Shown one piece after another: positions 1 to 53,700 of a stretch of DNA of 64,000 nt (position 1 is its first letter; each line of letters starts with the position of its first letter). The stretch is taken from the NCBI RefSeq assembly GCF_020520425.1, contig NC_079490.1, positions 1,922,001-1,986,000 on the forward strand, given 5' to 3'. The notes below the pieces were generated by a model. The model worked only from the letters and a program-made list of their open reading frames with translations. It was not told the origin of the DNA and ran no database searches. Made by a program: the position numbers and the translations under genes. Source of the stretch: Spinacia oleracea. Its lineage: Eukaryota > Streptophyta > Magnoliopsida > Caryophyllales > Amaranthaceae.

Positions 1-1480
1 GATTTTTTCGGGCTGAGAGCCCGGCATATTTTGAGCAGCTATAGCATCACCACACACCTACAACTTGTTTTGTTGGGACCTATATATGTTGGCTAAACTT
101 GAGATAGATTCCAAGGGCTCCCCTCCCCACCTTTTTCCCCTAGTCCTACCCTTTCAATTTTAAAAAAAATGAATAGTTGACCTTAGAGCTCAACATAGAG
201 CCACCATTTAAATGACAAGTAGACTAGTCTAGTAAAGAAAGGGTACGGAAAACGAGAATTAAGTTATTCCGTATGACGTAGTATTAAGAGAAGATTATCC
301 TAACTTTGCGTTTTTATAGATTTTTTTTAATTAGGGTACGAGAATGAGTAACATTTCTCTTGTTTTATGGCCAGCCCTAAATATTTGACTGAAAATAGAT
401 GATTTTTTTCTTTCTTTTTGGGGTTAGAATTACGTCCAGGTTCATTCTTCAGCATTCATTTGCTATTTTTGCTCCCCCACTAAAAACGCCAGACGCCGAA
501 ACCAAAAAATCAAAAATAAATATTGGCTTTGGCTCTCACCTATCAGTATCTTTGTCTGATAGAATCTGACGCGCCTTGTAAGCGCGTGGCATACCTTACC
601 TGATTTTGCAACGTAACCTCTTACGTCATTTTCCTCCTCAACCCCCTGAAGAATTCGTGCAGCCTTCTATAAAAGGATACAAGGAAAATGAAAGTTGATT
701 TTAAATTGAAAAAAATAAAAATCACTATTCTTAAAATTATTACTACTTCATATTGTTATCTTATCGACTATTAAGATTAATCAGCTACTTACAATACTGA
801 TTTCAAACTGTTTTTTTTTTTTTTAAAAAGGTACGACAAAATACATTAGAGCATAACTTAACATAACAATCAATTTAACATGCTGATATAAATGAAGTTT
901 GACTCTTTTTTTGACAAAGCTTGTAAGAGGAACAAACTAAAGGTCTTCTCTACACTCGTTGTCAAGTTATGGGCCTTTGCAACAAATAAACTAGCAACAT
1001 TCTCTCCAATACGATACAGGAGTTAAAAACTTGAAAAGTTTTTACTTTTTTTTTTTCTTGAAATCACATGTGATAAGTCTGGTTTCTTTGGAAGCCTTAT
1101 CCTCGTCGATCAACCCCATGAATGAGTTGAGGGGAGTCCGCCCAAATTACAACGGTAATGTCATGTGGCATAAGAACAACACAACTTGTGGCATGATGTC
1201 ACGTAGACTCAAGCAATACCTAGACTATCGGACAAATCTTTTGAAAATTGTGGGACAAGTGGACAACGTGATACAAATACATAACTATTAAGCTGGATTT
1301 TAGGCTACGCTAACTAGCTACAAGTCACGTAATACGGCACGACGCCCCCCACAAGTCACATAATACGGCACGACCTAGAGCCATCTGATCTAGTCCGGTA
1401 TAGCTAAGAAAAAAAATTGTTTTCTCCTCTCAAATTGAGCGCGTGTGATCCAACCTAGATAGGCGATTCATATTTGTCTT
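1..1480. other. Upstream region without a convincing gene
   Basis: AT-rich sequence with no long open frame. An 86-codon frame at 1031-1291 starts at TTG and matches nothing I recognise. Two promoter-like spots are visible: a TATAAAA at about 668-674, preceded by a TACGTCA-type motif near 623, with no frame behind it; and a 24-bp near-perfect direct repeat at about 1319-1342 and 1352-1375 upstream of the sulfite reductase promoter. Confidence 0.5.
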
Positions 1481-1488
1481 GTGTTAGG

Positions 1489-1512
1489 CACGTGACGGCA
1501 CAATATAATAGT
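1489..1512 (+). promoter_or_regulatory. Probable core promoter of the sulfite reductase gene (G-box and TATA-like)
   Basis: A palindromic CACGTG G-box core at 1489-1494 is followed at once by an AATATAATA TATA-like stretch at about 1502-1510. The start codon is about 180 bp downstream, after a pyrimidine-rich leader typical of a plant 5' UTR. G-boxes are bound by bZIP and bHLH factors. Regulation by light or nutrients is inference only. Confidence 0.45.
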
Positions 1513-1690
1513 TTCAGATTCCTCATTTTTTATTTTTTCTCAACCTTTTTCTGAACTTCATCACCACCATCCAACAACACCACTTCCTATCTTCCCCATT
1601 TTCTCTCTCCAACAAATATATATCTGCTCAGACTTCTGAACCCTAATTACTCTGATTTCTTTTCTGGAGTTTTGTTGTTTTGATTTGGGT

Positions 1691-4600
1691 ATGACGACGT
1701 CGTTTGGAGCTGCCAACAGCGCCATTTTCATCGACCCAAAGCTTCAAATTCAGAGCTTTAATGGGTTGAAGCCATCTGGGTTGATTCCTGTGCACAAAGG
1801 TGTTCATGGGGCTTCTGTATCTTCTTCTAATTCTTCCACCATAAGAGCTGTCTCTACGGTAATGAATTTTTTATTATTTTTTATTGTGCTGCCAATTTAT
1901 TGCTTGGATTCTTATTTTTTGATTGAATGTTACTGCTGCATTTCTTGATTTTGGTAAGTGGTTTTCGAATTGGGTTTTTGTTGATTAGAAATGGGTTATT
2001 GGAAGATACCAATGAATTAAATTTGGCTGTGTCGTTTGCTTAATATTTGCAGATCTTGTAAAATTTGAGATATTTTTCTTCTGGTTAGGAATTTGTGCAC
2101 AAATAAGTTCACTAATTTGTTAAGATTTTTTTTGGAGGGAATTTTGTCGATGATTTTGAGGAGACTGTTAAGCATGTTGGATCCAGATATCATTTTTTTG
2201 CATTTTAGTTCTGTATGGAGTGAAAGAAATTATGATTAATGCTCCATAGTGTTTTTAGAATACAATTGTTTGACATGAATGCAAGTTATTAGCCAGTCTT
2301 TCCCAGGATTAAATTTCTGGAAATGTTTCTTGATTTTCCACAGAAAAGTAGTGCATGTAATTATGTATTAATGATGTAGTATTACTGAATTGGTATTGCA
2401 TAATTTGCAGCCAGTGAAGCCTGAGACTGTTGTTGCGCCTAAGCGTAGTAAGGTTGAGATATTCAAGGAGCAAAGTAACTTCATTAGGTATCCTCTTAAT
2501 GAGGAGATGGTGAGTGATGCTCCTGGCATAAATGAGGCTGCTACACAGTTGATTAAGTTTCATGGGAGCTATTTGCAGTATAATAGAGAGGAGAGAGGTG
2601 CAAAATCATACTCGTTCATGCTTCGAACGAAAAACCCGTCTGGTAAAGTGTCCAACAGATTGTACTTGGTAATGGACGATCTTGCTGATCAATTCGGCAT
2701 TGGAACTCTTCGGTTGACTACAAGACAAACTTTTCAGCTACATGGAGTTTTGAAAAAGGACATGAAAACTGTGATGGGAACTATTATTAGAAACATGGGT
2801 TCGACTCTTGGTGCTTGTGGGGATCTCAACAGAAATGTCCTTGCTCCACCCGCCCCACTTGTTAGGAAAGATTATTTATTTGCTCAGGAAACAGCTGAGA
2901 ATATTGCTGCTCTCTTAACTCCACAATCAGGTTTCTATTATCTGCATTTTTTGATTTTGTTACGTGGGTTTTGAATTGGGATTTTGTTGATTAGAACTGG
3001 GTTATTGGAAAAGATCATGATTAAATTTGGCTGTGTCATTTGCTTAATATTTGCATATCTAGTAATTTGGATTTTAGATTTTTTTTTTCTGATTAGGAAT
3101 TTGTGCAGTAATAAGTATGCTAAGTTGTTGAGAAATTTTTATTTTTGGGGGAATTTTGTGGATGATTTTGAGGAAACTGCTAAGCAGGTTGTGTTGGGTA
3201 CAAGATATTATTTTGTTGCATATTAGTTCTGTATGGAGTGAATAAATTAGAATACAATTATTTGAATGTGAATGTATGTTATTAGCCGTTAGATAACTCC
3301 TTGATGTTTGTGTTTAACGAACATATATGTAACTCCATAATCAGGTTTCTATTATGATGTGTGGGTCGATGGAGAGCAATTTATGACAGCTGAACCTCCC
3401 GAAGTGGTGAAAGCTCGTAACGATAATTCACATGGTACAAATTTCCCGGACTCTCCAGAACCCATTTATGGAACTCAGTTCTTGCCTAGGAAATTCAAAA
3501 TTGCTGTCACGGTTCCCACTGATAACTCAGTGGACATATTCACAAATGACATTGGTGTTGTTGTTGTGTCTGATGAAAATGGCGAGCCACAGGGTTTTAA
3601 CATATATGTAAGATTCTTGGCTGTACTCATCTGTATTTTTAATCATCAATGCCTTTTTTCTTTTCTTCTGATTAGCTTGAATTTTTGTGTTAGGTTGGAG
3701 GTGGCATGGGAAGAACACACAGGTTAGAAAGCACATTTGCACGTATGGCTGAACCGATAGGCTATGTGCCGAAGGAAGATATATTATATGCTATCAAAGC
3801 TATAGTAGTTACTCAGAGAGAGAATGGTAGAAGAGATGACCGAAAATACAGCAGGATGAAATATTTAATTAGTTCATGGGGTATTGAAAAGTTCAGAAGT
3901 GTTGTAGAAGAGTATTATGGAAGGAAGTTTGAACCAATCCGTGAGTTGCCGGAGTGGGAGTTCAAGAGTTTTCTGGGTTGGCATGAGCAGGTGTGTTTTT
4001 CTCCCTGATGTGTGCTACTATCATTTTGTGCTATTCTGCTAATTCTTCTTGGAAATAACAGTTCTCTTCAGATATGTTTAATCCTCCTCTAAGAAAAATT
4101 GGGAAAGGACTTTCTTCATGATGGAACTGTGTGATTTGCCTTATATAAACTATCTACAAATGCCTGATTGAAGAGGCGTATGATTTTAAGTTGCAAATTC
4201 ATATTCTTTATCTGAATACTTGGGCAAGTTATTGAAACAAAATGAGCGTGTATGTCAATGTGCAGAGCTTCTTACGCTTAGTGCCATGATCTATTGTAAT
4301 GGTTGAAGGAAAGAATATTTTGCAGTAGAAATTCTTGCAATATCAAGGAAAGATTATTCTTTGATATTCTGCTAATTCTTCTTGGAAATAACAGTTCTCT
4401 TCAGATATGTTTAATCCTCCTCTAAGACAATATTAGAAAGGACTTTCTTATCGAACTGTACCTTATATAAATCATCTATAAATGCCTGATTGAAGAGGCC
4501 TATGATTTTAAGTTGCAAATGCATACTCTTTATCTGAATACTTGGGCTAGTTATTGAAACAAAATGAGTATGTATGTCAATGTGCAGAGCTTCTGAAATC

Positions 4601-6808
4601 AGATGTTGTGGAAAAACAGATAGTTTTACTAGCAAAATGTCTGTTTTGCTGAAAGTTTCATTGTTGTAACACCTAGGAAAAGTCCTTTCGCTAACTATAT
4701 TGTTTATTTTCACAGGGTGATGGAAATTTATTTTGTGGCCTTCATGTTGACAGTGGCCGTGTTAAAGGCGTGATGAAGAAAACATTGAGGGAAGTGATTG
4801 AGAAATATAATTTGGATGTGCGTATTACAGCTAATCAAAACCTTATTCTGTGTGACATTCGCCCTGCATGGAAACGTCAAATCGGCACAATGCTTGCTCA
4901 GGGAGGCCTGCTGGTATGATCTTGTTGGAGTACTATGATTACCGTTGTATACCTTCTATCTTTGTGACATGAAAGGGGTGGGGGTGAACTAGACCTGATC
5001 GCGTGAGCCCGGCCTGAAAAATAGTGGGTTTGTGCTATATTTTAGGCCCGTTTTCCGGGCCCTGCCCGAATTATATATTTTTTTGGGGTGGGTTTTGGGC
5101 AACTCAAAGTTGCAATTTTTTGTGTGTAAATTTACCCGGCCCGAAAGCCTGCTATTTGGCCCGAAATAGCGGGTTTTGGCAGAAAAATTCGTCCAGAAGT
5201 TCGGCCAGACCCGACCTAATGGGCAGAAATTTTAAGGTGTGGCCCGGCCCGCAATGTGATCAGATCTAGGGTGAACTTGGAGACTTCGTTTTCATAGCAC
5301 ATTCATATTTGTATACTTTATTGCTTACATGAACATTTGTCAACTTCAGGAACCCAGGCTAGTGGATCCCCTTAATGTAACTGCGATGGCATGCCCTGCT
5401 TTACCTATGTGTCCATTGGCTATAACTGAAGCCGAGCGAGGAATCCCCGACTTACTGAAACGTGTTAGAACTTCGTTTGAGAAGGTATGCTGTTCTTTGA
5501 CAATTTCGTCTTTTTGGTTTTTTTTTCATAATATAAAAGTTAACCAAAACATAGTTAAAGTTACAAAGAACTAGTTAAAAGTTACAAAAAAACTGGATAA
5601 AAGTTATTTTGGTGTACGATAAATTTATTGTACACCGTGTGCGTGCAAGACCTTTTGATTACGGATTGCAACAAGAAGTTCCCTTACTAGCACAGAATGT
5701 TGTTTCCAGGTTGGCCTCAAGTACAACGAGTCTATTGTAATAAGGGTTACTGGCTGCCCTAATGGATGTGCTAGACCTTACATGGCTGAGCTTGGACTTG
5801 TTGGTGATGGTCCCAACAGTTATCAGGTACTTACACTGTAGTAGAAACATTATACTTGTGTATATAAACATGCTGAATTGTGAATGGCTTAAATATTTTA
5901 CTCCATATCTTTTGCATGTGAAATTGTGTGTTTATGTCCTATGAAATACAAGCTGAATTCAATTTTGTGTCAAAAAACAGATATGGCTAGGTGGAACGCC
6001 CAACCAAACATCCTTGGCAAGGTGCTTCTTGAACAAGGTCAAAATCCAAGAACTGGAGAAGGTGCTAGAGCCTCTATTTTATCACTGGAAACGAAATCGG
6101 AAAGCCAGGGAATCGTTTGGCGATTTCTCAAACCGCTTGGTGAGTATTGAACCCAAGATAGAAAATGATATTTTTTTCCCTTCTGGTTGCCTAGGTTTAA
6201 AGATGGTTGTGGACCAGGCTGGGATTCGGGCCGAGTCTGTGGGCCTGAACGGATCCATGCCAAGCCCACTCTACATTGGGTCGGGCTGATTTTTTTTAAA
6301 ACAGGGTCCAGACCCACGGGCCAGCTGTAATACCTAAGCCAAATTTTACTAAATTTAGCGTGCTTTGTCGTGCCATGCCATGTGGTGCTTTTTCCAAAAA
6401 ATCTGGCCCGCCCCACGACTACGTGCTCGTGCCGGGCTTTTTTGTGGCTGGTCGGACCGGGCTTTTGTGTCGGGCTTTTTCGCCCCACAACTATCTTTAC
6501 CTAGGTTGAAGCATTTAATACCCCTCATTTTGTTTAAAGAATTTATAGTCATCGTGTTTAGAAGGTGAGTGTTGAGCAAATGTGATATACTCTTGTAGGG
6601 TTTCGAAAAACTTCAAGAGATGGTGGACAAGTGGGACGGTATACCGAAATCATCCGGTAAATTCAACCTGAAGCTTTTCGCTGACAAGGAAACGTATGAA
6701 GCCGTAGATGAACTTGCACAGCTGCAAAACAAGACAGCCCATCAGTTGGCCATGGACATCATCCGCAATTATGTTGCTGCCGAGCAAAATGGCAAAAGTA
6801 TCGAATGA
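1691..6808 (+). CDS. SIR: Ferredoxin-dependent sulfite reductase, chloroplastic
   Basis: Reduces sulfite to sulfide with six electrons from ferredoxin in plastids, using siroheme coupled to a 4Fe-4S cluster (known for the family). Exons: 1691-1858, 2411-2930, 3345-3607, 3694-3990, 4716-4913, 5350-5484, 5710-5826, 5981-6139, 6599-6808. All junctions are GT-AG, phases agree, and the product is 688 aa, normal for plant SiR. The first about 60 residues are Ser/Ala-rich, as in a transit peptide. The [10 protein letters not shown] siroheme-contact motif lies near residue 160. The cluster cysteines are in CPALPMC (C497, C503) and TGCPNGC (C543, C547), which fit SiR rather than nitrite reductase. Translation starts at the ATG at 1691; an in-frame TTG six bases upstream is not needed. 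Introns 5, 6 and 8 carry transposons; intron 2 looks recently gained and intron 4 contains an internal duplication. Confidence 0.96.
1937..3287. repeat. Paralogous introns 1 and 2 of the sulfite reductase gene
   Basis: About 1937-2295 in intron 1 aligns collinearly with about 2943-3287 in intron 2. Shared runs include GATTTTG, TTGATTAGAA, TGGGTTATTGGAA, TTAAATTTGGCTGTGTC, GGAATTTGTGCA, TTTTAGTTCTGTATGGAGTG and TTATTAGCC. The two copies have diverged by substitutions and small indels. The exon between them is single-copy. Confidence 0.85.
2917..3355 (+). repeat. 25-bp exon direct repeats bounding intron 2
   Basis: Positions 2917-2941 and 3331-3355 are the same 25 bases with one difference (C/T at the seventh base). 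Each contains AATCAG|GTTTCT. The left copy provides the GT donor of intron 2 and the right copy provides its AG acceptor, so splicing restores a single copy of the exon sequence (Gly codon G|GT). Confidence 0.9.
4031..4592 (+). repeat. Tandem duplication inside intron 4 of the sulfite reductase gene
   Basis: About 4031-4272 and 4367-4592 are near-identical, both starting with TTCTGCTAATTCTTCTTGG and ending with ATGTCAATGTGCAGAGCTTC, with about 95 bp of unique sequence between. Each copy ends with a TGCAG acceptor-like motif, but the acceptor inferred from the protein frame is at 4715. Confidence 0.85.
4990..5268. mobile_element. hAT-like non-autonomous element, family I, in SIR intron 5
   Basis: Ends are TAGACCTGATC and GATCAGATCTA (inverted). 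It is flanked by perfect 8-bp target duplications GGGTGAAC at 4982-4989 and 5269-5276. The 279-bp interior is built from degenerate words such as GGCCCG, CGGGTTT and GGCCCGAAA. No coding capacity. The same ends recur at 43020, 43952 and 50897. Confidence 0.85.
5530..5660. repeat. Dispersed repeat with palindromic tip in SIR intron 6
   Basis: Contains repeated AAAGTTAC words and a stem-loop around ATAAATTTAT with GTAC/GTAC arms, then GTGCAAGACCTTTTGAT. The same block occurs at about 44480-44593, so this is a dispersed family, possibly one end of a MITE. No target duplication was identified. Confidence 0.6.
6198..6499. mobile_element. hAT-like non-autonomous element, family II, in SIR intron 8
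   Basis: Ends TAAAGATGGTTGTGG and CCACAACTATCTTTA are inverted repeats. Perfect 8-bp target duplications CCTAGGTT lie at 6190-6197 and 6500-6507. The 302-bp interior is rich in GGGCC, CGGGC and GGCCC words. A second copy with the same ends lies at 41732-42241. Confidence 0.85.
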
Positions 6809-6998
6809 GTTCGAACACAAATTGCATCTTGATTTTCCAGATGTATGTATTTTCTACATAAAAGTCCAGGAAAAACAGCCACAGTTGCCTGGACATGATT
6901 TTTTAGTAATCTTCTCTTCTTTAACCTTCCTTTCTCAACCCCCTTTTGTTTTGATTAGACGTCCTTTTGTGTAATTTTCTATGTGGAGAGTTTTGGTT

Positions 6999-7135
6999 GT
7001 AACTGCAATCGGGATTTACGCTGCCTTTTTTCTGGTGGCTGTGTGAACACGACACAGGTTGCTATTGTAACTGCAATTGGGATTTAGGCGCTGCCTTTTT
7101 TATGGTGGCTGTGTGAACACGACACAGGTTGCTAA
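6999..7135 (+). repeat. Tandem duplication in the SIR 3' region
   Basis: Two head-to-tail copies of about 70 bp start with TTGTAACTGCAATYGGGATT and contain GGTGGCTGTGTGAACACGAC. They differ at a few bases and lie 190-330 bp after the stop, probably in the 3' UTR or just beyond it. Confidence 0.85.
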
Positions 7136-7374
7136 TGAGAGTTGTAATTTTGACAGTTATGAGAATGCAATATGATCTCAATTTGAGGAGGACTGCTATA
7201 TGTTGTGTGCAATTTTACAGGAATTTAACCAATAATGGCTGAACTGTTACATGTCGGAATTTAACCATGAAACTTTTACGGGGTACATAAATGTATCCGG
7301 TGAGCTTAAACACGAGATGTTAGGATGATCAGAGAGGCATGAATAGTGTTAGATCTTGCCATCTCGGTGGCGGG

Positions 7375-36354: not shown

Positions 36355-39300
36355 ATGACTACGGTGAGGAGACCCAAATGGCACCCACAACCACCACTAC
36401 AAACACCAAGAATCCTCCACCTTCCACGGCGGACTTCTACTTCTACTCGCCGGAAAGTGCCCACTACGAACGTGAAATCGAATTCCGACGTCAACCCTTT
36501 TCTCCGGCGATCTCAGAAGGGTAAATTAGAGAAACTCTTTGACCAAGAGAGGGCGTTTTCGTACACTCTTCCTCCGGTGCCGGTGGTGTTGCTAAATTCC
36601 GGCGAGAGGGGTAGAAATGAGAATGTGCCGGAAAGTGAGGGGGAGAAATGGCGGTTTCAAGCTGAAATGTTGAGGGCGGAGTGTAATTTCTGGAGAATGG
36701 AGAGAGAAATTGCTGTTAAGAAGATGGAGAGAGAAAGGGTAGTTTTGGAAAAGAGCTTGAAGTCTGCTGTTCATACACTACTCTCTGTTAGTTTCTTGCC
36801 ATTAATCTCAATGTCTGATTTTGTTATCGTTTTGTATTTTCAGTTTTCGTGTTATTTTCTTCAAAACTAAAAAAAAATAAAAATACTGAAAAACAGTTTT
36901 TTTGTTGTTGGTTTTTAAAATCTAACATGATGAACATAGAAGAGTGTTTTTTAGTATATTAATCAATCAAAATCATACGACTTTCAAAATCATAAAAACA
37001 AAAATTGAGAGCTGAAAGTGATACTGAAACGAGCTTAATCAATTTTTTTTTTTTTGAATTAATCATCTAATTCACATCATTTTTTTATGCCAACATAAAT
37101 CATCAAAATAAAAACTGAGAACTGAAAGTGATACTGAACGAGCTTAATCATTGATTATATTTTTTGAATTAATCATCTAATTCACATTATTTTTATGCTA
37201 ATATGATAAGTTTGAGTGATATTACTTTTGTGTCGATATCTATATGAGTCTGGATTGTTCTATGTCTTTTTCATCTGATTTTATGTGAATTTAAAGTTTA
37301 AATAAAAAGCAAAATCTTGTAAGTTGAATTTGATTTCATTTGTCTTATCTCATTTGGAGTGTGGTTAATTGTCTTATTATGTAACTCTACTTTTAAAACT
37401 TATGTGAAAAGACATGTTTTCTCTAGTTTAATTGTCTTTTTCTGCAATGCAAATAAGTTTGTTTGTTTGTCAAATAATAGGTAATTTTGTTAAGATCATT
37501 GTCTAATGATTGTATTAGATAATGATGGTTCATGTTTCGCAAACGGTTCCTCATTAAGGTTTATGTTAGCCTAATGATTAGATTAGATAATGATGGTTAA
37601 TGTTTAGCATGCGGTTCCTTATTAAGATTCATGTTAGCCTAATGATTGGATTAATATAATGATGGTTCATGTTTCGCAGACGGTTCCTTATTATTTTATT
37701 AAGGTTCAGGTTAGCCTAATAATTAGATTAGATTAGATAATGATGGATCATGTTTAGCAAACGGTTCCTTATTAAGGTTCATGTTAGTCGACCTCAATTG
37801 TTGTTGTTGCAGTGCTTTCCAGTTAATCTACAATTAACCCTTATTAATATACAGTTAATAACTATAAATACACCATCAAGTGTCAACAAATGGAATTACA
37901 CCACCTATGATTTTCCAAACTTATATTTACAAAATTGCCATTTGATCGAGAAACTTTCCCAATCACTACAATTAACTCGGAATTTCTCTTGTTTGTTGTT
38001 GTTGTTGTTGTATCTAATGATTGGACTAATTATTGATCAATGTATATAGGGAAAAAAGAAAATCCGGGAGGGTGAAAGCGGGAATTCAATGCTAGAGGAG
38101 GAAATTGAGGAGTTAGCAAAGAAGCTTATACAGTTACAAAAGAGCTTCAAGCATATAAAAAGCCCTGAACTTCATCATAATTGCAGCAGCAGCAGTAATT
38201 TTGATAAGCAAGCCTCTTTGCTTCAGAAACAACTCGAAAAATTCAGTGAAATGCAGGAAGAATGTTCTGTTAAGGAGATTTCAGAAGTATCAGAAGTTAG
38301 CTTACCTATCAATTCTACCACTACAAGAGATGGGAAGATTAAATGTCACGGTTCCAAACGTCGTCAGTCCACCAGGTTTACTGATGTAAGGGTTAATCTC
38401 TGCTTGTTTTTTATCGCGAATTTCATAATAATTTCGTTAATATATTAGCTATATCTAGTACAGGATTCACCATTTCACCAGGTTTACTGATTTAAGGGCT
38501 AATCTTTGCTTGTCTTTGTCAGAATTTCATAATCTTTTGTTAACATATTAGCTATATCTAGTACAGGATTTACCAGGTTTTCTGTTGTAAGGGCTAATTA
38601 CTGTTTGTCTTAAGGGCTAATCACTGCTTTTTAAGGGCTAATCACTGCTTGTCTTAAGGGCTAATCACTGCTTGTCTTAAGGGCTAATCACTGCTTGTCT
38701 TAAGGGCTAATCACTGCTTGTCTTAAGGGCTAATATCTGCTTGTCTTTTTCTCAAAACTTCATAATTTTTTGCTAATATATTAGCTATATCTAGTACAGG
38801 ATTCACCATTTCACCAGGTTTACTGATTTAAGGGCTAATCTTTGCTTGTCTTTGTCAGAATTTCATAATCTTTTGTTAACATATTAGCTATATCTAGTAC
38901 AGGATTTACCAGGTTTTCTGTTGTAAGGGCTAATTACTGTTTGTCTTAAGGGCTAATCACTGCTTTTTAAGGGCTAATCACTGCTTGTCTTAAGGGCTAA
39001 TCACTGCTTGTCTTAAGGGCTAATCACTGCTTGTCTTAAGGGCTAATCACTGCTTGTCTTAAGGGCTAATATCTGCTTGTCTTTTTCTCAAAACTTCATA
39101 ATTTTTGGCTAATATATTAGCTATATCTAGTACAGGATTCACCATTTTTACTGATGTAAAGGCTAATCTTTGCTTGTTTTTATCCCGAACTTCATAATTT
39201 TTTGCTAATATATTAGCTATATCTAGTACAGGATTTACCATTTTTACTGATGTAAGGGCTAATCTTTGCTTGTTTTTATCGCGACTTCATTATCTTTTGT

Positions 39301-42300
39301 TAATAGATTAGCTATATCTAGTACAGGATTCACCGGGTTTACTGATGTAATTAAGGGCCAATCTATCATAATTTTTAGTTAATATATTAGCTGTCTAGTT
39401 CAGATTCACCAGGTTTACTGATTTAAGGGCTAATCTCTGCTTGTTTTTACCGCGAACTTCATAATCTTTTGTTAATATAACAGCTATATGCCTATATCTA
39501 GTACACGATTCACCAGGTTTACTGATTTAAGGGCTAATCTCTGCTTGTTTTTATCGCGAACTTCATAATCTTTTGTTAATAGATTAGTTATATCTAGTAC
39601 AGGATTTACCAGGTTTACTGATCTAATTAAGGCTAATCTCTGCTTGTCTTTATCATAAATTTTCACTAATATATTAGATTATTAGCTATCTAGTACAAGA
39701 TTCACCAAGTTTGCTGATACAAGGGATAATCTCTGCTTGTTTTCATCTTGAACTTCATAATCTTTTGTTAATATATTTCGTATTAGTTATCTTAGTACAG
39801 GACTTCTTTGAATACAAAAATTTCGACTATGGACTTGAAATACTTGTTATCTAAAACTAGAACTTGGTACAATGTTGATTCATGTTCAATTTCAGTAGTC
39901 TAGAATAACATTTGCTGATGTATGAGCTAATCTTTGCACCTGTTTTTATGTGAATTTCGTAGATTTTCTGCTGATATATTAGTAACCCTGCATGAGTACA
40001 GATTTCCGTGCATACTAGAGGACTCGAGTTTCTTGTTTAAGTAGGTACAGACCCTGTTACAGTATTGATTTGTATATTAGAACATAATTCATTTGCAATA
40101 ATCATATGAACCTTAGTTTGATCTACACTGTTTTTCTAGAAATTAAGTGTGAAAATTTTCATTTCTATACAAAAAACTCGAATTTTATGAGCATTTGAGA
40201 TGATATTGAAGTAAATAATTGATATACAGGTGGAGATTTTGAGAAGAAAAATGGAAGGATTATCAAAGGGGAAATTGTTGAAGAGAATGGAAGAAGAGTA
40301 TGGATACATGTTATCAGGAACAGCTAACTATTCTGTTTCCAGTTCTGCTTCTACATCGAAACGATATGACTTTGCAGATTCATCTTCCTTTCCAATTCAG
40401 CAATCCTCATCACAGGCATGTTCATTCTTCTTTGGTGATTTGCCAACTTTTTATTTTGTGTATATGGTTCTGAGTTGCCTTAAATGATGTTGTTATACTG
40501 TGCTAGTAGTGTTCTTTGTTTTCAGTTGATCAGATTGTTTAGGGTGTGTTTGGTTTGAAGATAAAGATTTTGATTGGAAAATATATAACAGCAACAGAAA
40601 ACCAACTTTTGAACTTCGTTTTCTTTTGTTTGGTTCGTTGCTGGAAGTGTTAAGAGTGGCAAGGGAGAGGAAAGGAGGGCAATAGATGAATCCCTTAGTG
40701 TGCAACAGAGATCACTGACTGTTTAGGCTGTGTTTGGTTCGAATAAACACATTTTGACTGGAAAATATATAACAGCAACAGAAACCAACTTTTAATTTGT
40801 GAATATGGTTCTGAATTACCTCATCCGAAGTTGTTATACTGTACTAGTAGTGTTCTTTGTTTTCAGTTGATCAGATTGTTTAGGTTGTGTTTGGTTTGAA
40901 CATAAAGATTTTGATTGGAAAATATATAATAGCAACAGAAACCAGTTTTTGAACTTCGTTTTCTTTTGTTTGGTTCGTTGCTAGAAGTGTTAAGCGCGGT
41001 CAAGGAGAGGAGAGGAGGGCACGAGATGGAACCCTTAGGGAGTGTTTGGTTTGGTGTAAAACGTTCTCCTGGAAAATGATTTTCCTCTTTTCAATCATGT
41101 TTGTCATGACAAGGGGTGTAAAATAGTTTTCCAATAACGTACTCTCTGAAAGATGGAAAACCTTTTCCATTTGAAAGGATCATTTTTTCACTTTGCCTCC
41201 TTACCTATTTTTTTTGTAAGGATCCAAACAAATGAAAACTATTTTGGGATATTTTTTTCCCTTGGAAATGTAAAATCATTTTTACTAAAAACGTTTTTCA
41301 TCAAACCAAACGGAGCCTTTAGTGTGCAACAGAAATCACTGACTGTTTTTACTGCTGTCATTGATCATATTTTGTCAACTATTTTCTTCCTGAAAAGTGT
41401 TAATTTCACTTGTTTGATTGAATATAATACCAGTTTTGTGCTCAAACATAATTAATCTATACAGGAGGCAAAATCTGGGGAGCTCAAAATGTGTTCAGGC
41501 AAGTGTAAAGCAATAGTAAGGAGGATCATGGAACAGGTCAAAGCTGAGACAGAACAATGGTCTCAGATGCAAGTGATGTTGGGGCAAGTTAAGGGGGAGA
41601 TGGAAGAAGTGCAGGCTTCTCGCGATTTCTGGGAAGAACAAGCACTCGAATCCGAGCACAGAACCAAGAAACTGGATTCTGATGTAATTACAGCTCTCAA
41701 TCTCCATCTAATGTGCAGTTTCACTTGCTGGTAAAGATGGTTGTGGGCCCGTCCGGGTCGACCTTTGGGCCTGAACGGGCCCGCTGGGTAGGGCTTCGGA
41801 CCTGAACGGGGCCGGTCAAACCCACTATACTTCGTGCCGGTTGGGCCGAAGATTTTGAAACAGGGCCCATGTCCCCGGGGTCGGACGTCGTGTCCAAGCC
41901 TAGTTTTACTAAATATGTCGTGTTGTGCCGGGTTGTCTTGTCGTGCTTTTTCAAAAAAAAAAGAGACACAGGCCCATCCCATGGCCCACGACTTCGTGCT
42001 CGAGCCAGGCCGTGCATTTTTTTGTGCCCATATCGGGTCGGGCTTTTTCTTGTCGTGTCGGGCTTTTCGGGTCGGGCATCTAATTTACTAAATTTAGCGT
42101 GATATATTTGTCGTATTTTCCCCCAAAAATGAGGCACAAGCCTGGCCCACGAGCCAAGCCGTGTTTTTTTTGTGCTCGTGCCAGGCCGGGCCTTTCGTGT
42201 CGGGTCGGGCCTCGCCCTGGGTCGGCTCACAGCCATCTTTAGTTTCACATACTCATTTGCTGCATCTCTTCACATATTGACAGGACTGATCAATTTCCTG

Positions 42301-43019: not shown

Positions 43020-43242
43020 AAGACCTGATCAACATGAGCTCTGCCTCGAATTTTTGCGGGTTTGGCCAAAAATTTTCGGGCCGGGCCCGAAAATTTTAAA
43101 TTTTTTTTGGCGGGCTTGGGAAACATAAAACTACACCTTTTAGTTATAAATTTAACATGGCCCGAAAAGCCTGGTATTTTAGGCTCAAAATAGCGGGTTT
43201 GGGCACAATTTTTTGACCCGGCCCGTCAATTGATCAGGTCTA
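43020..43242. mobile_element. hAT-like element, family I
   Basis: Ends AAGACCTGATCAACATGAG and TTGATCAGGTCTA. Interior of GGGCCGGGCCCG and CGGGTTTGG words. Flanks CTTAATAT / ATATATAT agree at five of eight positions. Confidence 0.75.
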
Positions 43243-44844: not shown

Positions 44845-46465
44845 CATCTCAAAATTTACATTATTTGTGTTTTACTCTTACTTGTTAATTATCTAGTCAA
44901 ATTATTCTAGCTTTTGTTCACTTTTTTCTTAAAAAAATCTAGTCCAATAATCTGTTTGTTTGTTTGTTTTTTTTTCCACTTATTTTTTCATAATTTACAT
45001 TATTTTTGTTTTACTCTTACTTGTTAATTATATAGTCAAATTATCCTAGCTTTTGTTCACCTTTTTTCTTAAAAAATCTAGTCAAATAATATGATTCTTG
45101 TTTGTTCACTTATTTTTTCATAATGTACATTATTTTGTTTTACTCTTACTTGTTAATTATCTAGTCAAATTATCCTAGCTTTTGTCCACTTATTTTCTTA
45201 AAAAATCTAGTCAAATAATCTTGTTTTGTTTTTGTTTTTGTTAACTTATTTTTTCATAATGTGCATTATTTTTGTTTTACTCTTACTTGTTAATTATCTA
45301 GTCAAATTACCCTAGCTTTTGTTCACTTTTCTTCTTAAAAATTATAGTCAAATAATCTGTTTGTTTTGTTTGTTTATCTTATATGAACTTATATGAACTT
45401 ATCAAAACTTATTTTAGTTATAAGTTGTACTCGGTCAACCCTTATTTTTCCTGAACTTATTTTATCTGAACTTAATTTTCCTGAAATAAATGAAAATAAA
45501 GTGAACAGAACAAGGCCTTAGTTATACTATTTTATTTTATGGTATATTTTTACGAATGCTTTTTGGTATGTTCACACATTAAATATACACTTTACCCTTA
45601 TTAACATTTTACATTTACCATTATTAACTAGCGTGTTTGCCTTTTTTTTTTTTACGTTTGTTATTGTATTGAGAATTTTTGCATTTACCATTTTTTTAAA
45701 AAAAATTTATGTCCAGTTCAAATGGTGCAAGTAAAAAGCAAGTATTTAACAAGCAACAGGTTCTCTCTCCACTCTCCACTCTCCATATCTCCTCTTCTTC
45801 GTTTCCAAAATTTGCCAATCTTAATTACGTACACGAGATCACTAATTTCCATTTCTTAAAACATCTTTCTGCAGTTGTTGAATTCGTAAGCTCAATTCAG
45901 CGAATCGCACATTCTACAATCGAAGGTAAAATCTGGCTCATTATTCAAGCACTTTAAACTTTCGAATTCCTAAATTTTTGGTTAATTTTTTTTTTTTTTT
46001 TAAATTACTCATGCTTATGCGAATTTAACTAACGTAAACCTAAATCGATTGAGTATTTGAATCGCGATAATCTGTTTGTTTTTTTGTTTTGTTTTTGTTC
46101 ACTTAGTTTTTATAATGTTCATTATTTTTGTTTTACTCTTACTTGTTAATTATCCTAGCTTTTGTTCACCTTTTTTCTTAAAAAATCTAGTCAAATAATA
46201 TGATTTTTTTTTTGTTCACTTATTTTTTTTCATAATGTACATTATTTTTGTTTTACTCTTACTTGTTAATTATCTAGTCAAATTATCCTAGCTTTTGTTC
46301 ACTTATTTTCTTAAAAAATCTAGTCAAATAATCTGTTTTTTGTTTTTGTTTTTGTTAACTTATTTTTCCATAATGTGCATTATTTTTGTTCTACTCTTAC
46401 TTGTTAATTATCTAGTCAAATTACCCTAGCTTTTGTTCACTTTTCTTCTTAAAAATTATAGTCAA
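44845..46465. repeat. 145-bp tandem array, split and block-duplicated
   Basis: Four units occupy about 44845-45365 and three about 46070-46465, each with TTTTACTCTTACTTGTTAAT, AGTCAAATTAYCCTAGCTTT and CTTAAAAAATCTAGTC. The three right-hand units repeat the order and private variants of left units 2-4 (for example ATGTGCATT and CTTCTTAAAAATTATAG in the last). A set of three was therefore copied as a block around a 700-bp spacer. Confidence 0.85.
45700..45960 (+). other. Leader-like segment with a splice-donor motif, no downstream gene
   Basis: CT-rich CTCTCTCCACTCTCCACTCT followed by a short frame and TCGAAG|GTAAAATC resembles a plant 5' UTR and first intron. Nothing coding follows before the tandem array. 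Possibly a relic of a gene's first exon. Confidence 0.3.
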
Positions 46466-46734
46466 AGATATTGATGGTCAAAGTTGTGCATTGACGTACT
46501 TTCATTATATTCGGGAAGATTTTGTCAAATTTGTGCATTGACGTACTTTGGCGTTGTTTTCTTCACCTTATTTCTGCAACGCAAATTACTAAAGGGGGAG
46601 GAAGGGTTCGGTCTTTTGTTCTGCAATCCGTTCTATCACTAAAATTGAATAAATCAGCCACTTAATAACAATCCATACTAGCGTTACCTAATTCTCTAAT
46701 CACCCCCACGAACCGAAAAGACGAGTTATAATAC

Positions 46735-47148
46735 GAAGTTAGTCTTATTCAACAAATTAGACAACGAATCACAATAGTGATCTACATCACGAAAATTTCA
46801 ACACTTTTTTGAGTTATATTATAAATTGAGATGTTTGACGATCAATTATAGCAACCATAGAACACGAGACGGCCCCAATAATCATTGCGAACTCATACCA
46901 GTCTCACACTAGCGAATCAGGTAACAATGATCCATACACAAAGTTTCAATACATTATTGAGTTACATTATACAAACTGAAAAGTTTAACGATAAATTATA
47001 GCCTCCATAAAACATAAGACGACCCCAATAATCACCATGATGAGTGATGACCATTATCCAAAACGGAGTACAAATCAGGACAATTGAAAGCTTTATGTGT
47101 GCCTTGAGGCTCAACATCTTTAGAAATCTCAGTATCAACCGTCACATG
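46735..47148 (-). pseudogene. Two neprosin 3'-end fragments
   Basis: 46735-46890 holds 3' flank plus about 40 bp of coding end (CAATTATAGCAACCATAGAA). 46905-47148 holds the flank and about 155 bp of coding end up to ACCGTCACATG; its stop codon is lost (AATTTA in place of AATTGA) and an insertion near 47045 disrupts the frame. Confidence 0.8.
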
Positions 47149-47280
47149 TTTTTTTTAATTTTATTTTTGTTTTACATTGTATAAAAATTGTATGCTAAGT
47201 CACTCGATGTATAATTTTTGGTTCCGCCCCTGATGAACATGAAACAATTTTGGTCTAATTAACAAATTAAATAGTGAATT

Positions 47281-47545
47281 GCGAACCCCATACCCAGTCC
47301 CAAATTAGCAAATCAGGTAACAAGCAACAATGACACATACACCAAATTTTTAATATTTTATTGAGTTATATTATACAAACTGAGAAGCTTAACGATCAAT
47401 TATAGCCTCCATAAACCATAAGACGACCCCAATAATCATCCCGATGACCAAAATCCAAGACGGTGTACAGATCAGGACAATTGAAAGCTTTATGTGTGCC
47501 TTGAGGTTCAACATCTTTAGAAATATCAGTATCAACCGTCACATG
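47281..47545 (-). pseudogene. Neprosin 3'-end fragment with intact short frame
   Basis: Positions 47396-47545 encode the last 49 residues of the neprosin gene with only small changes (QGTHKAF for QGTYKAF, GHRDDYW for GHSGDYW) and the same stop. Similarity ends abruptly after CACATG. No splice acceptor is seen, so it is a truncated tandem copy. Confidence 0.85.
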
Positions 47546-47773
47546 TTTTTAAATTTTATTTTTGTTTTACGTTGTTATAAAAATTGTATGCTAAGTTCCC
47601 CAATGTATAATTTTTGCTTCTGCCCATGATGAACATGAAACAAAATTAAGTAGTGAATTGCGAATCCATACCGAGTCTCAAATTAGCGAATCAGGTAACA
47701 CGCAACAATGATCCATACACCAAAATTTCAATATCTTATTGAGTTAAATTATACAAACTGAGAAGTTAAACGA

Positions 47774-50700
47774 TCAATTATAGCCTCCATAAACCATAAG
47801 ACGACCCCAATAATCACCCGAATGACCAAAATCCAAGACGGTGTACAGATCAGGACAATTGAAAGCTTTATATGTGCCTTGGGGCTCAACATCTTTAGAA
47901 ATATCAGTATCAACCGTTACATGTCGTAAAAACGACGAAAACCTTGTGTTATAAACTGCCTTCATACCACTACCCATTTCAGGAGGTGGGCTTATTGGGC
48001 CTGGATTGCTGATTTCTCCGCCCCATTGAACTTGATTGGCGACATCCGCTAAGCTTGTAAATAGAGTTTTGGGCCAATATCCGATTGGATATAATCTACC
48101 ATTATTACTTATTGTGACCCACCAGTTTCCATCATCTGAATGCTGTATACAAAAGTTTATTATACACATGAATTAATCCAAATAAACAAAAACAACTAAG
48201 GGGTCGTTTGGTTCACACGGGGTAAAGGGAATGGAATCAAGAAAGGGTATGGAATGAGATGGAAAGCAAAACACTTTGTTTTCCCAACTTGTTTGGTTTA
48301 CAAAAGAGAAAAGGAAACCCCATGATACATAGCCATCCCTCTCTTTTGATCTACAACCACCACTCCTCCTTCAATCTAAAACCACCACTATTCCCCCTCC
48401 CCTCATCCGTCGGAACTCCGTCCCTCCTCCTCACTTCTTCGTCGTTGTTGCTCCCCTTCCCCGCCGTTGCGCCTCCACGTTCTCTGTTTCCTTTGTTTTC
48501 TCTTTCTTCTCCTTTATCTCCATATCTTAGATCTAGTGACTTTGTAGATTTTTATTTGTAATTGATGTTGTTTTTAGGGTAGTAGGTATGATTTTCAAGT
48601 GGTTGAAGTTATTTTTGGAGAGAGTGGGTTGTTTTTGGGGGAGGTTAGAGTTTAATACGGGTGTTGAGGTGGTTTTTGGTGGTGGCTTAGTGGCTTTCGT
48701 AGGTGGGTTGGTAGTTTCGTGGTGATAGGCTAGATTTCCGGTGATAAGAGGGTGGATTCGTGGTGGTAGGTGGGTGTTTGGTGGAGGTTGGGTAGTTTTG
48801 AGGGAGTTAGAGTAGGTTTTTGGTGGTGGTTGTGTAGTGTTGGAGGTGGTTGGGTGGTTGTCGGAGTAGTGCTAGCCGTGAATGTGGTCGGAGTGGTGTT
48901 AGCGGGCTGGTGGTTGACGGATGTTGTGGTGTCATAAATTGTCAAGGGTGGCCAAAGGGTAGTTAGGTAGTTGGGTGAAGAGGACTTTGGGAGTATGGAT
49001 GATTCCTTGGGGGGTGTGGGGAATCATGGTAGAGGTAAGTGGGGGAATCACGGGGGTAAAGAGAATGATTGATTTGGCCTAACAAACAACTTAAAGGGAA
49101 TCAAGGTAGTTGATTCCCTTTCCCTTTGACAAAGACCCCGAATCAAACGCTCCCTAAAGATTGTCCGTTTGGTATCGTTTTTTGTTTACAGTTTTCTGTT
49201 TTTTTTACAAAACTAAAAATCAAAATATTAAAACTGGCAGTTATAATTCAATCTAAATCACGTGACTTACAAAATTAACATGAATACTATAGGAATGACT
49301 ATTTTTTAATCCAAATTGAAAACTGACAGTTATATCGGATTATACCTTGAAACAAATCTAATAAGTAGGGATGACCATGTATCCAGTGGCGGATGTACAG
49401 TGCAACGTGGGTAGACACAATTTTTTAACTGAAAAATCATTTTAATAGGATGAGTATGTAAAAAAAGAAAAAATTTGGTCAATGTAGGAGTCGAACCCAT
49501 GATCGAAGGGGACAATCATAACTAGATTTCCTCACTAACCACTCTAGCATCTGCCTTTATGTTTGTTTGTTGTAGATTAACTATATAAACCTTATTTTTA
49601 AAATTCCAATTTTTTTTCTTTTTCGGGGTGGCACGTCATATTCTCATCTGATTTTTAATTTCTACTTCGTATATTTTTGAAATTTGCTTATATAACACAG
49701 AGTATTGCGTATACATATTTCTTGTATAATCTTTAAAATCTTAGAATTTATAAAATAACGGTGAAATTGATAAATTTTATGTAAACATTGTAATTAGTAC
49801 TCCGCAAATTATCATTATCATTTTATCTATTTTTTAAAAAAATTGTATTTTTTGTTTCTTTTAAAAGTGTCTACCCAGTTTCAAAATCCTGGATACGCCA
49901 CTGCATGTATCCATGACCCGACCCAGACCCTATTGAATCAGCCCCAACTATTTTATAGTCCAGGTCCAATTATTTGAGACTCATATGGGTCCATATTCTT
50001 TAAAATGGGTGGGTCCAATATTCTCTTAGACTCAGACTCGGTCTATTTTACCTGGTTTTCCATTGTTTGGTTAGTTTAGCGAGGAAAGTTGTTGAAATTA
50101 ATAAGAGAGTTTAAGATTTCTCTAACTTTTCATAATTTTCCCATCTATTACCAACGAAGTATTGGCATAGTAGTTAACATTGATGGTCTGTGTATGATGG
50201 GTTTCGTGTTCGAATCTCCCATTCCCAATTTGTAATGTTATTGGCTTGTTGCTCTTTATGGCTCATTCCCACACGAAAAGTAGTTTTTTCTTTGATTTTG
50301 AAAGGAAAACTATATTTCCCAATATAACTAAAAGGTTTTACAAATATTTCGCACAATTATTTTTTCATAGTTTTCTCTTCAACTAAACAAACACAATACA
50401 ATTGAGGATTTCGACATTTTTACAGTTATTTTACTCATTAAAGTCAAGTAACCAAATACACTGTTAATGGTCAAACTTTTTAAGAGACGGAGGGTTAAAA
50501 ATATACCTTTTCAACAGAAATGTTCCAAGTATATTGTACACCACCAATTGCTGAATATTTTTCCGGGACAACGCCTAGAGGTACATCTTTTGACACTTGA
50601 ACAAAACCTGGACATTGAAGATTTATGCATCCTTGTTGTCCAGCCTATAACAAACATAATAACATTTTTTACGTACAAATTTGTAATTTGTTTTGCTTAA

Positions 50701-53700
50701 TTAAAATATTAATATAAACACTAAATATATATTCTTACTGTAAACTTTGCATAGAGGTGGGTATCATGATCGATAAATAAACTAGGATTCACCTGAAAAT
50801 GAGAATTAAGCACCCTGATAAAGTGACAATAAACACACAATGAAAAAGAAGTACGAAATATCATACGCGGTAAAATGTACTTCGTAATAAATAACTTAGA
50901 CCTGATCAACATGAACCCAACACCCTGACCCAGAAAAAGATGAAGTTGTGCAGAAATTTAATGCCTGTTTTTTCGGACCAATTTTTTTTTGTGCGGGTTT
51001 TGGGCAATCCAAAACTGATCTTTAGTTATAAAAATTGGTCGTCTCGAAAATGGTTCAAAATCAATTTTTTTTTCTCCGAATTGAAATATATAGCCGGTTT
51101 GGGCACGAAGATTTGGCCCATATTTGATCCGGCCCGAGATGATGGGTTGACCTTTTGGTCATGACCCAATCCAAACCGGACCTGTCTATTAATCAGGTCT
51201 AGTATAACTTTGGCGGAACTTAATTTTTGCTTATAAAAATAAGGGGGTTTGGTAAATATACGAACCATCCATCCAGCTTCGATACTATCTGCCCCGTTTA
51301 ATAATTTAATTCGACTCGACGACCATTGAGTTGGTTGTACTTGCGGTCTGTAGATGGAGATGGCAGCATTCGATTTGAAGAACTTCCTATTTGAATCATC
51401 CAAGTTTGTTTGAATAACAGCACTCTGCATCAAAAAATAGAATTAATATCACAAATATAATTTAATATAAATAACATAAATTTGGAAGAAATAAATATTA
51501 TTTGCATGGTCACGTATATATAATTTATATAATTAACATAAAATTGGAAGGAAGATTATTCGTTTGGTCACATGTATATAATAAATATAATTAACATAAA
51601 ATTGGGATAATTCTACCAAAATAAACCATATTCCAAAAGGTTGAAATTCCCCTCAAAAATGGAAAAAACGCTCTCGACTGAAGAGTCGGATCTGGTTCAA
51701 AGAAGCAGCAAAAAGGTCAAACGTAAGGCGGTGGTACAACATGGACAGGAAGCAATGGCGGAAATGGTTCAATCCATGGAAACGGACGCTGGTGCAGAGG
51801 ATACACACCCCCTCATGGAAACGAGAGAACAGCAGATTCGCTCGTATAGTTCTGCTACAAAGGGACACCTTGGCCATCGTGGAGTGACTCAGGTCATAGA
51901 TGATGAGGATCTGGCTTCTGATGATGACTTGCAAGATGGAGAAGAAGATGAAGAAGGATGCCCTGTAATCCTGCTTTCGAAGGAAGAAAAAAGACGGCTT
52001 CGACTTCCGTGGAAACATTCGCTGATAATCAAACTATTTGATAAGAGATTGAGTTATGCGGTTCTGATAAGAAGGCTGAAATTAATGTGGAGCTTGAAAG
52101 GAGAAATTGCACTCACTGATGTTGGGTGTGCTTACTATGTAGTCCGATTTACTTCCATGGCAGATTACGATTTTGTTATGACTCAGGGTCCATGGATGAT
52201 TGGAGACAGCTATCTCACTATTCGAAAATGGGTGCCCAACTTTGTCCCAGATGAGGAACCAATTAAGACTCTCACAGCGTGGGTTCGCATACCAAACCTA
52301 TCAGTGGAATACTTCGATAGAATATTCCTCCATCGAATTGGAGAAAAAATTGGTAGAGTAGTAAGGATTGATAAGAATACAGAATCGATGGATCGTGGAC
52401 AATATATTCGATTCTGTATCGAAGTAGATCTCTCAAAACCATTGTTATCAAAATTCAGACTCAATGGACGGGTATGGAGGATCCAGTACGAAGGGCTTCG
52501 TCAGATATGTTTCAAATGTGGTCACTTAGGGCACAAAGATTCAGAATGCCCTAAGTTTAAACACACAAGAACAGATGAACATGCAGAAGGCCAATGTAAT
52601 GCGTTGCCTGTGCTAGAAACACAGGGTCCCAAGGTCCTGCGCCCAGAAGAGCAAGATCAATACGGCACTTGGATGTTAGTCCAAAAGTTACCAAGGAAGA
52701 CTCTAGCGAAGGCAAAGGGGGTCCAAACCAAGCAAGCCGATCCGAAAGCGAGTGAACAGAATAGATCGACGCCTAAAGTTGGGGTTGGAAACCAAAGATA
52801 CAGGGCGAGAAATCAGGAGCAGAATCATAATAATATTGACTTGGTCAAAAGCGGTTCGATATTTGCGGCTCTAAATCAAGTTACTGAAGATAACAACTCG
52901 AATGGAAATAATATGGAAACGGAGGAAGATTTCGAATTCGAAAGGAATATTATTAAGGAAACTATAGTAGACCAGTGCCAATATATGGAAGAGGAAATTA
53001 TTCGGGAGGAAAATATTTCCTTGGGAAGCAAGTCTATTAATGACAAACAGAATAATGAATCGGGTGACAATTTGGAATATATTCCCACAGTAGATTTGGA
53101 TGCAGACTCAAACTGCTCGGCCAAAGATAAGGAAAGTAGTATTAATTGGAAACTGGATATTCACTCGGAACAAGACCCTTCTGTTATTGGACTAGAGAAT
53201 CCTACCTTACCTCTACAAGAGAATAATATCCCGAGATTACCGCTTAACTTATCACGGGAAAGGAAGGTTAATTTAATTAAAGCCAATGTTACTGTGACTT
53301 CAGAAGGCAAAGAAAACGTTGTGGAAAAGAATTTTGAGTTAGCGAAACCTCCAGACGGTGAACATCGAACGAATCAAGTAGGCTACGATGGAACCATGGA
53401 TAACTCCGATAACATTGGAGATTCAAGCCCCTCCAGCCTACTCAAAATTCATAGATTACACCACAGAAGGACCTTTGATGGTCTCAATGCTCCCAATAGT
53501 GCACAAGGTGGAACTTCAGATCGATTCGTTCCTCCCCCCTCGCCGCAACCCACCGGATTTGATGGCAACAGTTCAACTCCCAATGGAGTTAGTTCACCCT
53601 ATGCGCGACCTTCGATCCGCATACATGGACATTCTGCCTAATATACCGTTGAATACGGTCGATAGATACCCTTCGTTCCCTATGTTTAATATGTCAATCA

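Follow-up and report, generated by a model that had tools for sequence, protein, structure and literature searches.

A well-supported intron gain in a plant sulfite reductase gene: a copy of intron 1 between two copies of a short exon segment

Where introns come from is still debated, largely because the sources of most gained introns have not been found, and a strong case for a gain has to combine a known source with a clear phylogeny (PMC4974935). Seven mechanisms of intron gain have been reviewed, and the relevant part of that review gives five unambiguous events for the repair of DNA breaks (PMC3443670). In Daphnia, introns of this type consist of an insert between direct repeats of exon bases, attributed to a staggered break patched with filler (PMC3443670, PMC4202315): 33 exon-derived repeats measured 4–12 bp (PMC4202315), and a source was found for one of 21 new introns (as cited in PMC4974935). 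Around gained Drosophila introns, flanking repeats of at least 5 bp were not in excess (19 of 77, against 26 of 100 conserved introns; PMC3296678). The nearest plant relative found for the locus described below is an RdRp intron of potato, a new second intron built from intron 1 material in direct orientation; in the parts of the report that describe it, the acceptor, branch site and tract come from the copied intron end, and exon sequence was duplicated along with them (PMC4974935). A further route is the AGGT tandem-duplication model (Rogers 1989; ATP2A1), in which a duplicated exon AGGT gives both donor and acceptor and the body of the intron is itself duplicated exon (PMC4974935).

The locus considered here is the gene for ferredoxin-dependent sulfite reductase (SiR), at positions 1691–6808 on the forward strand of a 64-kb stretch of DNA (the window). 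Nine exons (1691–1858, 2411–2930, 3345–3607, 3694–3990, 4716–4913, 5350–5484, 5710–5826, 5981–6139 and 6599–6808, all on the forward strand) are separated by eight introns; in this exon model all eight introns have GT–AG borders, and the frame is intact over 2067 nt including the stop (688 residues). The best full-length database protein is identical at 652 of 688 residues (94.8%), a Beta vulgaris protein at 634 of 688 (92.2%) and an Amaranthus tricolor protein at 615 of 687 (89.5%), while a quinoa entry agrees at 253 of 262 residues over exons 2 and 3 plus the first codon of exon 4. By these identities the plant is most likely a chenopod. Exons 2 and 3 also match structure 5h8v, a chloroplastic SiR (E = 2.2e-137). 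Seven of the eight introns are in phase 0, and phase 1 occurs only at intron 2 (2931–3344, forward strand, 414 bp). Among the open-licence PMC matches listed for SiR and intron gain, there was no paper on this intron.

Intron 2 is associated with a direct repeat of exon sequence, with a left copy at 2916–2941 and a right copy at 3330–3355 (both on the forward strand). The copies are 26 bp long and identical at 25 of 26 positions, the mismatch being a C at 2924 against a T; the original prediction had recognized the duplication and its single mismatch but had set the length at 25 bp. Both copies contain CAG|GT, and both splice sites of intron 2 lie there: the left copy provides the donor with its AG|GT at 2930/2931, where 2930 is the last base of exon 2 (ATCAG|GTTTCT), and the right copy provides the acceptor with its AG|GT at 3344/3345, where 3345 is the first base of exon 3 (AATCAG|GTTTC). 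This assignment, too, had been proposed together with preservation of the frame, and it agrees with the exon model, in which joining 2930 to 3345 gives the intact 2067-nt frame. When intron 2 is retained in the translation, the product stops after 243 amino acids; since the enzyme is intact and conserved, intron 2 is presumably removed from the mRNA. A duplicated exon AGGT that provides donor and acceptor is likewise the core of the AGGT model (PMC4974935), but there the body is duplicated exon, whereas the body of intron 2 is mostly intron 1 sequence. The donor agrees with the consensus at six of nine positions and has a duplex energy of −5.6, against five to seven of nine positions and −4.2 to −11.1 for the donors of the other seven introns; the weak donor reported for some newly gained introns, and expected here, is not seen.

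How much weight the exon repeat can bear depends on what else resembles it. An insert between direct repeats of exon bases is what intron 2 has in common with the Daphnia introns, although the SiR repeat is 26 bp long as compared with 4–12 bp (PMC4202315). The Drosophila result is a warning about short repeats. A match of 25 in 26 belongs in another class, even though the window has many longer direct repeats. There, 144 clusters of direct repeats matching at 25 of 26 positions occur at spacings of 60–1500 bp; nearly all of them, judged by eye, are parts of longer local duplications or arrays, and the exon repeat stands alone.

The body of intron 2 at 2942–3287 (forward strand, 346 bp) is a copy, collinear and in direct orientation, of 1936–2294 (forward strand) in the interior of intron 1 (1859–2410, forward strand, 552 bp, phase 0). 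The two are identical at 291 of 329 ungapped positions (88.4%), with 38 substitutions and 48 gap columns when the block is aligned as 1936–2295; when gaps are included in the count, as in blastn, the identity is 82.6% over 311 columns and 85.4% over 41. Local alignment of introns 1 and 2 scores 351, whereas intron 2 reaches at most 39 in 300 dinucleotide shuffles, and introns 3–8 score 18–29 against intron 1, which is background (these scores were computed with intron ends one base off). The alignment of the two introns, offered with the original prediction as its check, is thus far above chance, and the collinear copy it had placed at 2943–3287 and 1937–2295 is found again with a slightly different extent. 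Base composition agrees as well: GC is 29.5% in intron 2 and 29.7% in intron 1, compared with about 42% in the neighbouring exons. A blastn search of the 64-kb window found no third strong match to the block, only introns 1 and 2.

The edges of the block indicate the direction of copying. Its left junction in intron 2 is seamless, exon base 2941 being followed directly by intron 1 base 1936; no filler lies between them, and neither side of the join has a base in common. The copy leaves out 77 nt at the start of intron 1 and 116 nt at its end. In intron 1 the block is flanked by further intron on both sides (the adjoining 40 nt on either side have no word of more than six bases in common), and in intron 2 it is bounded by the exon repeat. 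Because intron 1 extends past the block in both directions while the exon repeat delimits intron 2, intron 1 is most simply taken as the source and intron 2 as the product. Drosophila introns originating by duplication were reportedly described by Tarrio et al. in 1998, among them a new intron of Xdh whose sequence goes back to another intron within Xdh. In Daphnia one of the 21 new introns could be traced to a source (as cited in PMC4974935); in SiR the source is the neighbouring intron. The potato RdRp intron, too, is a new second intron in a plant gene, made from intron 1 material in direct orientation (PMC4974935). SiR is unlike it in that neither end of intron 1 is present and the exon repeat provides both splice sites.

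Between the intron 1 copy and the right exon repeat lies a third piece, 42 bp at 3288–3329 (forward strand), which had been overlooked in the earlier account of intron 2, sound as that account was on the copy and the repeat. Aligned with exon 2, with the terminal part of intron 1 and with the region 1500–3287, it scores within the range of shuffles, and its top remaining blastn hit in the window has an E value of 0.22. A 7-mer, TAACTCC, that it has in common with the exon repeat was noticed by eye and rejected as evidence of a source because it is too short. The last 60 nt of intron 2 contain two motifs resembling a branch site, TTGAT (3301) and TTAAC (3314–3318), both inside the 42 bp, with the A of the motif 40 and 27 nt, respectively, from the acceptor end. 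The piece may therefore supply the branch site. It is tempting to see in intron 2 a composite made in one event from three DNA sources, with splice sites from the exon repeat, a body from the neighbouring intron and a branch-site region from filler, but this fuller picture is put forward tentatively, as something that could well be wrong.

Whether intron 2 is a gain depends on the state of the same site in other genes. Two protein searches together gave 179 different proteins among the matches listed: the first used exons 2 and 3 as query (best 120 of 710), the second exon 2 continued into intron 2 (best 120 of 229). Of these, 75 with at least 68% identity are unbroken through SG|FYYD or variants of it at the intron 2 site (the count excludes rows that are below 68% identity or do not cover the site, a threshold chosen to keep plant-like proteins). 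In 55 of the 75, one of which (P0066) is an annotated gene model, the reading continues from exon 3 into non-exon sequence, which is how unspliced DNA would behave. In 22 of these 55 it also comes into exon 2 from sequence whose last residue is Q, the residue that the CAG of an intron would encode. Two of the sequences, P0002 and P0003, correspond to A. tricolor SiR (P0189) at 261 of 262 and 262 of 262 residues; in both, introns 1 and 3 are unspliced and intron 2 is absent. The longest contigs behind these two Amaranthus-type open reading frames (ORFs) measure 2,365 and 1,645 bp, and those behind P0018 and P0040 measure 64.4 Mb and 862 kb. To judge by their reading into introns, most of the ORFs that cross the site are probably genomic, though for the short contigs a partly spliced pre-mRNA is conceivable.

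The remaining alignments contain no sign of the intron elsewhere. Three of the 179 end within seven residues of the site, and none of the three resembles intron 2: P0144 (54% identity) goes on into an apparent frame change, P0160 (45%) is a protein that ends at the site, and P0168 (49%), a radish gene model, crosses the site and departs afterwards. Another 27 alignments end before the site and are uninformative. Words spanning exon 2 and intron 2 occurred in none of 299 proteins examined, no second species with intron 2 appeared among the matches listed, and a scan of bacterial, archaeal and viral contigs for stray plant DNA confirmed nothing. Maize SiR is reported to have seven introns and eight exons (PMC6249382), compared with eight and nine here. 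With the site uninterrupted in Amaranthus-type and other plant-like ORFs, seven introns in maize and a phase out of keeping with the rest of the gene, a gain of intron 2 with intron 1 as source and with duplication of the target is well supported by these comparisons. The original prediction had claimed just such a gain, and it is upheld by the 55 of 179 proteins in which the site is empty, by the maize gene and by the odd phase; the check proposed with it, a comparison of SiR structure in other plants, gave no protein among the matches listed that reads into intron 2. A source is thus at hand for most of the length of intron 2 (42 bp remain), and the phylogeny is clear in part: the gain would date to some time after the split from Amaranthus, the proteins compared including no recognised chenopod genomic ORF.

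An age can be estimated from the two copies. The 38 differences in 329 positions correspond to a Jukes-Cantor distance of 0.125 (s.e. 0.021), which at assumed neutral rates of 0.5–1.0e-8 per site per year puts the gain at roughly 6–13 million years, a figure that gene conversion could make misleading. The gain had been called recent; with 88% identity between the copies, that word has to be understood as several million years.

The architecture of intron 2, its source and the uninterrupted site in other plant-like sequences can be read directly, and from them we infer a single event. The reading that we favour, with a probability of about 0.6, is that intron 2 was gained at the DNA level, after the split from Amaranthus, in one complex repair event at a break in exon 2. 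A break or collapsed replication fork in exon 2 would have started the event, and about 26 bp of exon would have been duplicated, either through fill-in of staggered ends or through re-entry of a polymerase 26 bp upstream. Repair synthesis between the duplicates would then have copied about 360 bp of intron 1, which lies on the same strand 1 kb upstream, after which about 42 bp of filler would have been added and the gap closed by end joining. The 2941|1936 junction, without shared base or filler, is a possible outcome of end joining or of template switching. Of the two copies of CAG|GT in the duplicated exon, one would have become the donor and the other the acceptor; the intron 1 piece would have formed a body that is rich in AT and resembles an intron, the branch site may have come from the filler, and the protein would have stayed as it was. 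Schiml et al. 2016 is said to be the plant reference for small duplications at breaks. In mouse embryonic stem cells, small duplications are produced at breaks with overhangs (PMC8355091). Of the two mechanisms originally suggested, staggered-break repair with intron 1 as filler remains the best account; intron transposition in the form of reverse splicing is contradicted by the missing 77 and 116 nt, and a third candidate, taken up next, had not been considered.

That candidate involves two steps: a tandem duplication of 1936–2941 (1,006 bp, comprising the end of intron 1 and exon 2), followed by deletion of the second copy of 2295–2915 (621 bp) with the 42 bp as filler. The duplication would have been tolerated since exon 1 could splice to the second copy of exon 2, and the 26-bp repeat would be the stub of that second exon 2. 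Such a history accounts for a source that is upstream, in the same gene and in direct orientation, as well as for the gapless 2941|1936 join, and the potato RdRp intron was gained through tandem duplication across an intron–exon border (PMC4974935). In SiR the acceptor lies in the exon repeat and is not inherited from the duplicated intron, and the ancestral form may have been deleted later. Direct pairs of at least 50 bp within 5 kb of each other also outnumber inverted pairs in the window by 67 to 3, and two such local duplications, in intron 4 and near 7000, lie in or beside SiR. Many of the direct pairs come from a few arrays, and intron 2 itself accounts for one; of the inverted pairs, two form one AT palindrome. 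On the other hand, two events are required, the second of which had to leave AG|GT intact by chance; exon 2 has left no significant mark on the 42 bp; and no intermediate is known. Both histories fit the end product, and a single repair event is ranked first because it is more economical, which leaves duplication followed by deletion as a genuine but lesser contender.

Insertion of a mobile element, or LINE retroposition, is a good deal less probable. The 350-bp block would then be an element residing in intron 1 that entered exon 2 as well and left a long target-site duplication there. Some introners produce a target duplication, and intron 2 has one; in addition, a LINE-type ORF of the window (53382–57830) encodes reverse transcriptase and endonuclease domains. 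Introners are likewise insertions into a gene that create an intron (PMC9860276), but introners multiply, and the SiR block gives no sign of a multiplying element within 64 kb, the 42 bp being unmatched and the block having no third strong match. Nor are there inverted repeats of at least 18 bp in 1000–6000, an A-tail ahead of the right repeat (the sequence before 3330 is GAACATATATG) or, in intron 1, a common word of more than six bases in the 40-nt flanks of the block. A route through the mRNA, in which intron 1 is reverse-spliced into it before reverse transcription and recombination, would explain why the new intron copies another intron of SiR. It is very unlikely because neither end of intron 1 was copied, the exon duplication that flanks intron 2 supplies both splice sites, and the neighbouring introns have been kept. 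Hardly more credible is an old intron that was lost in other plants and overwritten here by gene conversion from intron 1, a history for which no support was found: it is at odds with the intron count of maize and the uninterrupted site in Amaranthus-type and many plant-like ORFs, needs many losses and leaves the exon duplication unaccounted for. An assembly artefact might be suspected from duplicated sequence in a repeat-rich window, but with 38 substitutions and 48 gap columns between the copies, and with the spliced frame intact, it is negligible.

Intron 2 of SiR is a real and unusually legible intron gain, with relatives already published in Daphnia and in potato RdRp. In addition to its source it displays the duplicated target, so that donor, target and duplication are legible together. 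If intron 2 was gained by repair as we favour, the copying of an intron to a new place can be a matter of DNA-level repair, separable from reverse splicing. Were such events general, introns would seed nearby introns through ordinary DNA repair, a broken exon being patched by local AT-rich, intron-like sequence, and a part of what is called intron transposition would be accounted for without reverse splicing. As a single gene from a plant group with crops among its members, SiR also lends itself to testing.

Several further features of the gene and the window were noted. Two database proteins depart from SiR in ways that are likely gene-model errors: P0200, from quinoa, is missing 66 residues of exon 5, and P0197, from Bienertia, has 33 additional residues at the intron 7 site and is missing 26 at the end of exon 8. 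In intron 4 about 250 bp are duplicated locally and in direct orientation (4020–4272 and 4353–4594, spacing 322–333), with 88% identity over 253 columns by blastn and 91–93% in ungapped parts, and just downstream of the SiR coding region, at 6997–7137, there is a tandem duplication of about 70 bp in two copies with 94% matches. Local direct-repeat arrays lie at 38370–39805, 44849–46466, 46765–47924 and 58662–58919, with shifts near 336, 139, 394 and 62 bp. A LINE-type retrotransposon at 51611–57833 has two long open frames, one encoding a protein with DUF4283 and a zinc-knuckle and the other a 1483-aa protein with endonuclease, RVT_1, zf-RVT and RVT_3 domains; as both frames are uninterrupted, the element is perhaps young. 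Introns 5 (4914–5349) and 8 (6140–6598) have a GC content of 0.45 and 0.46, against 0.29–0.33 in the other six, and contain pieces resembling 43073–43208 and 41732–42067, which are therefore probably dispersed repeats.
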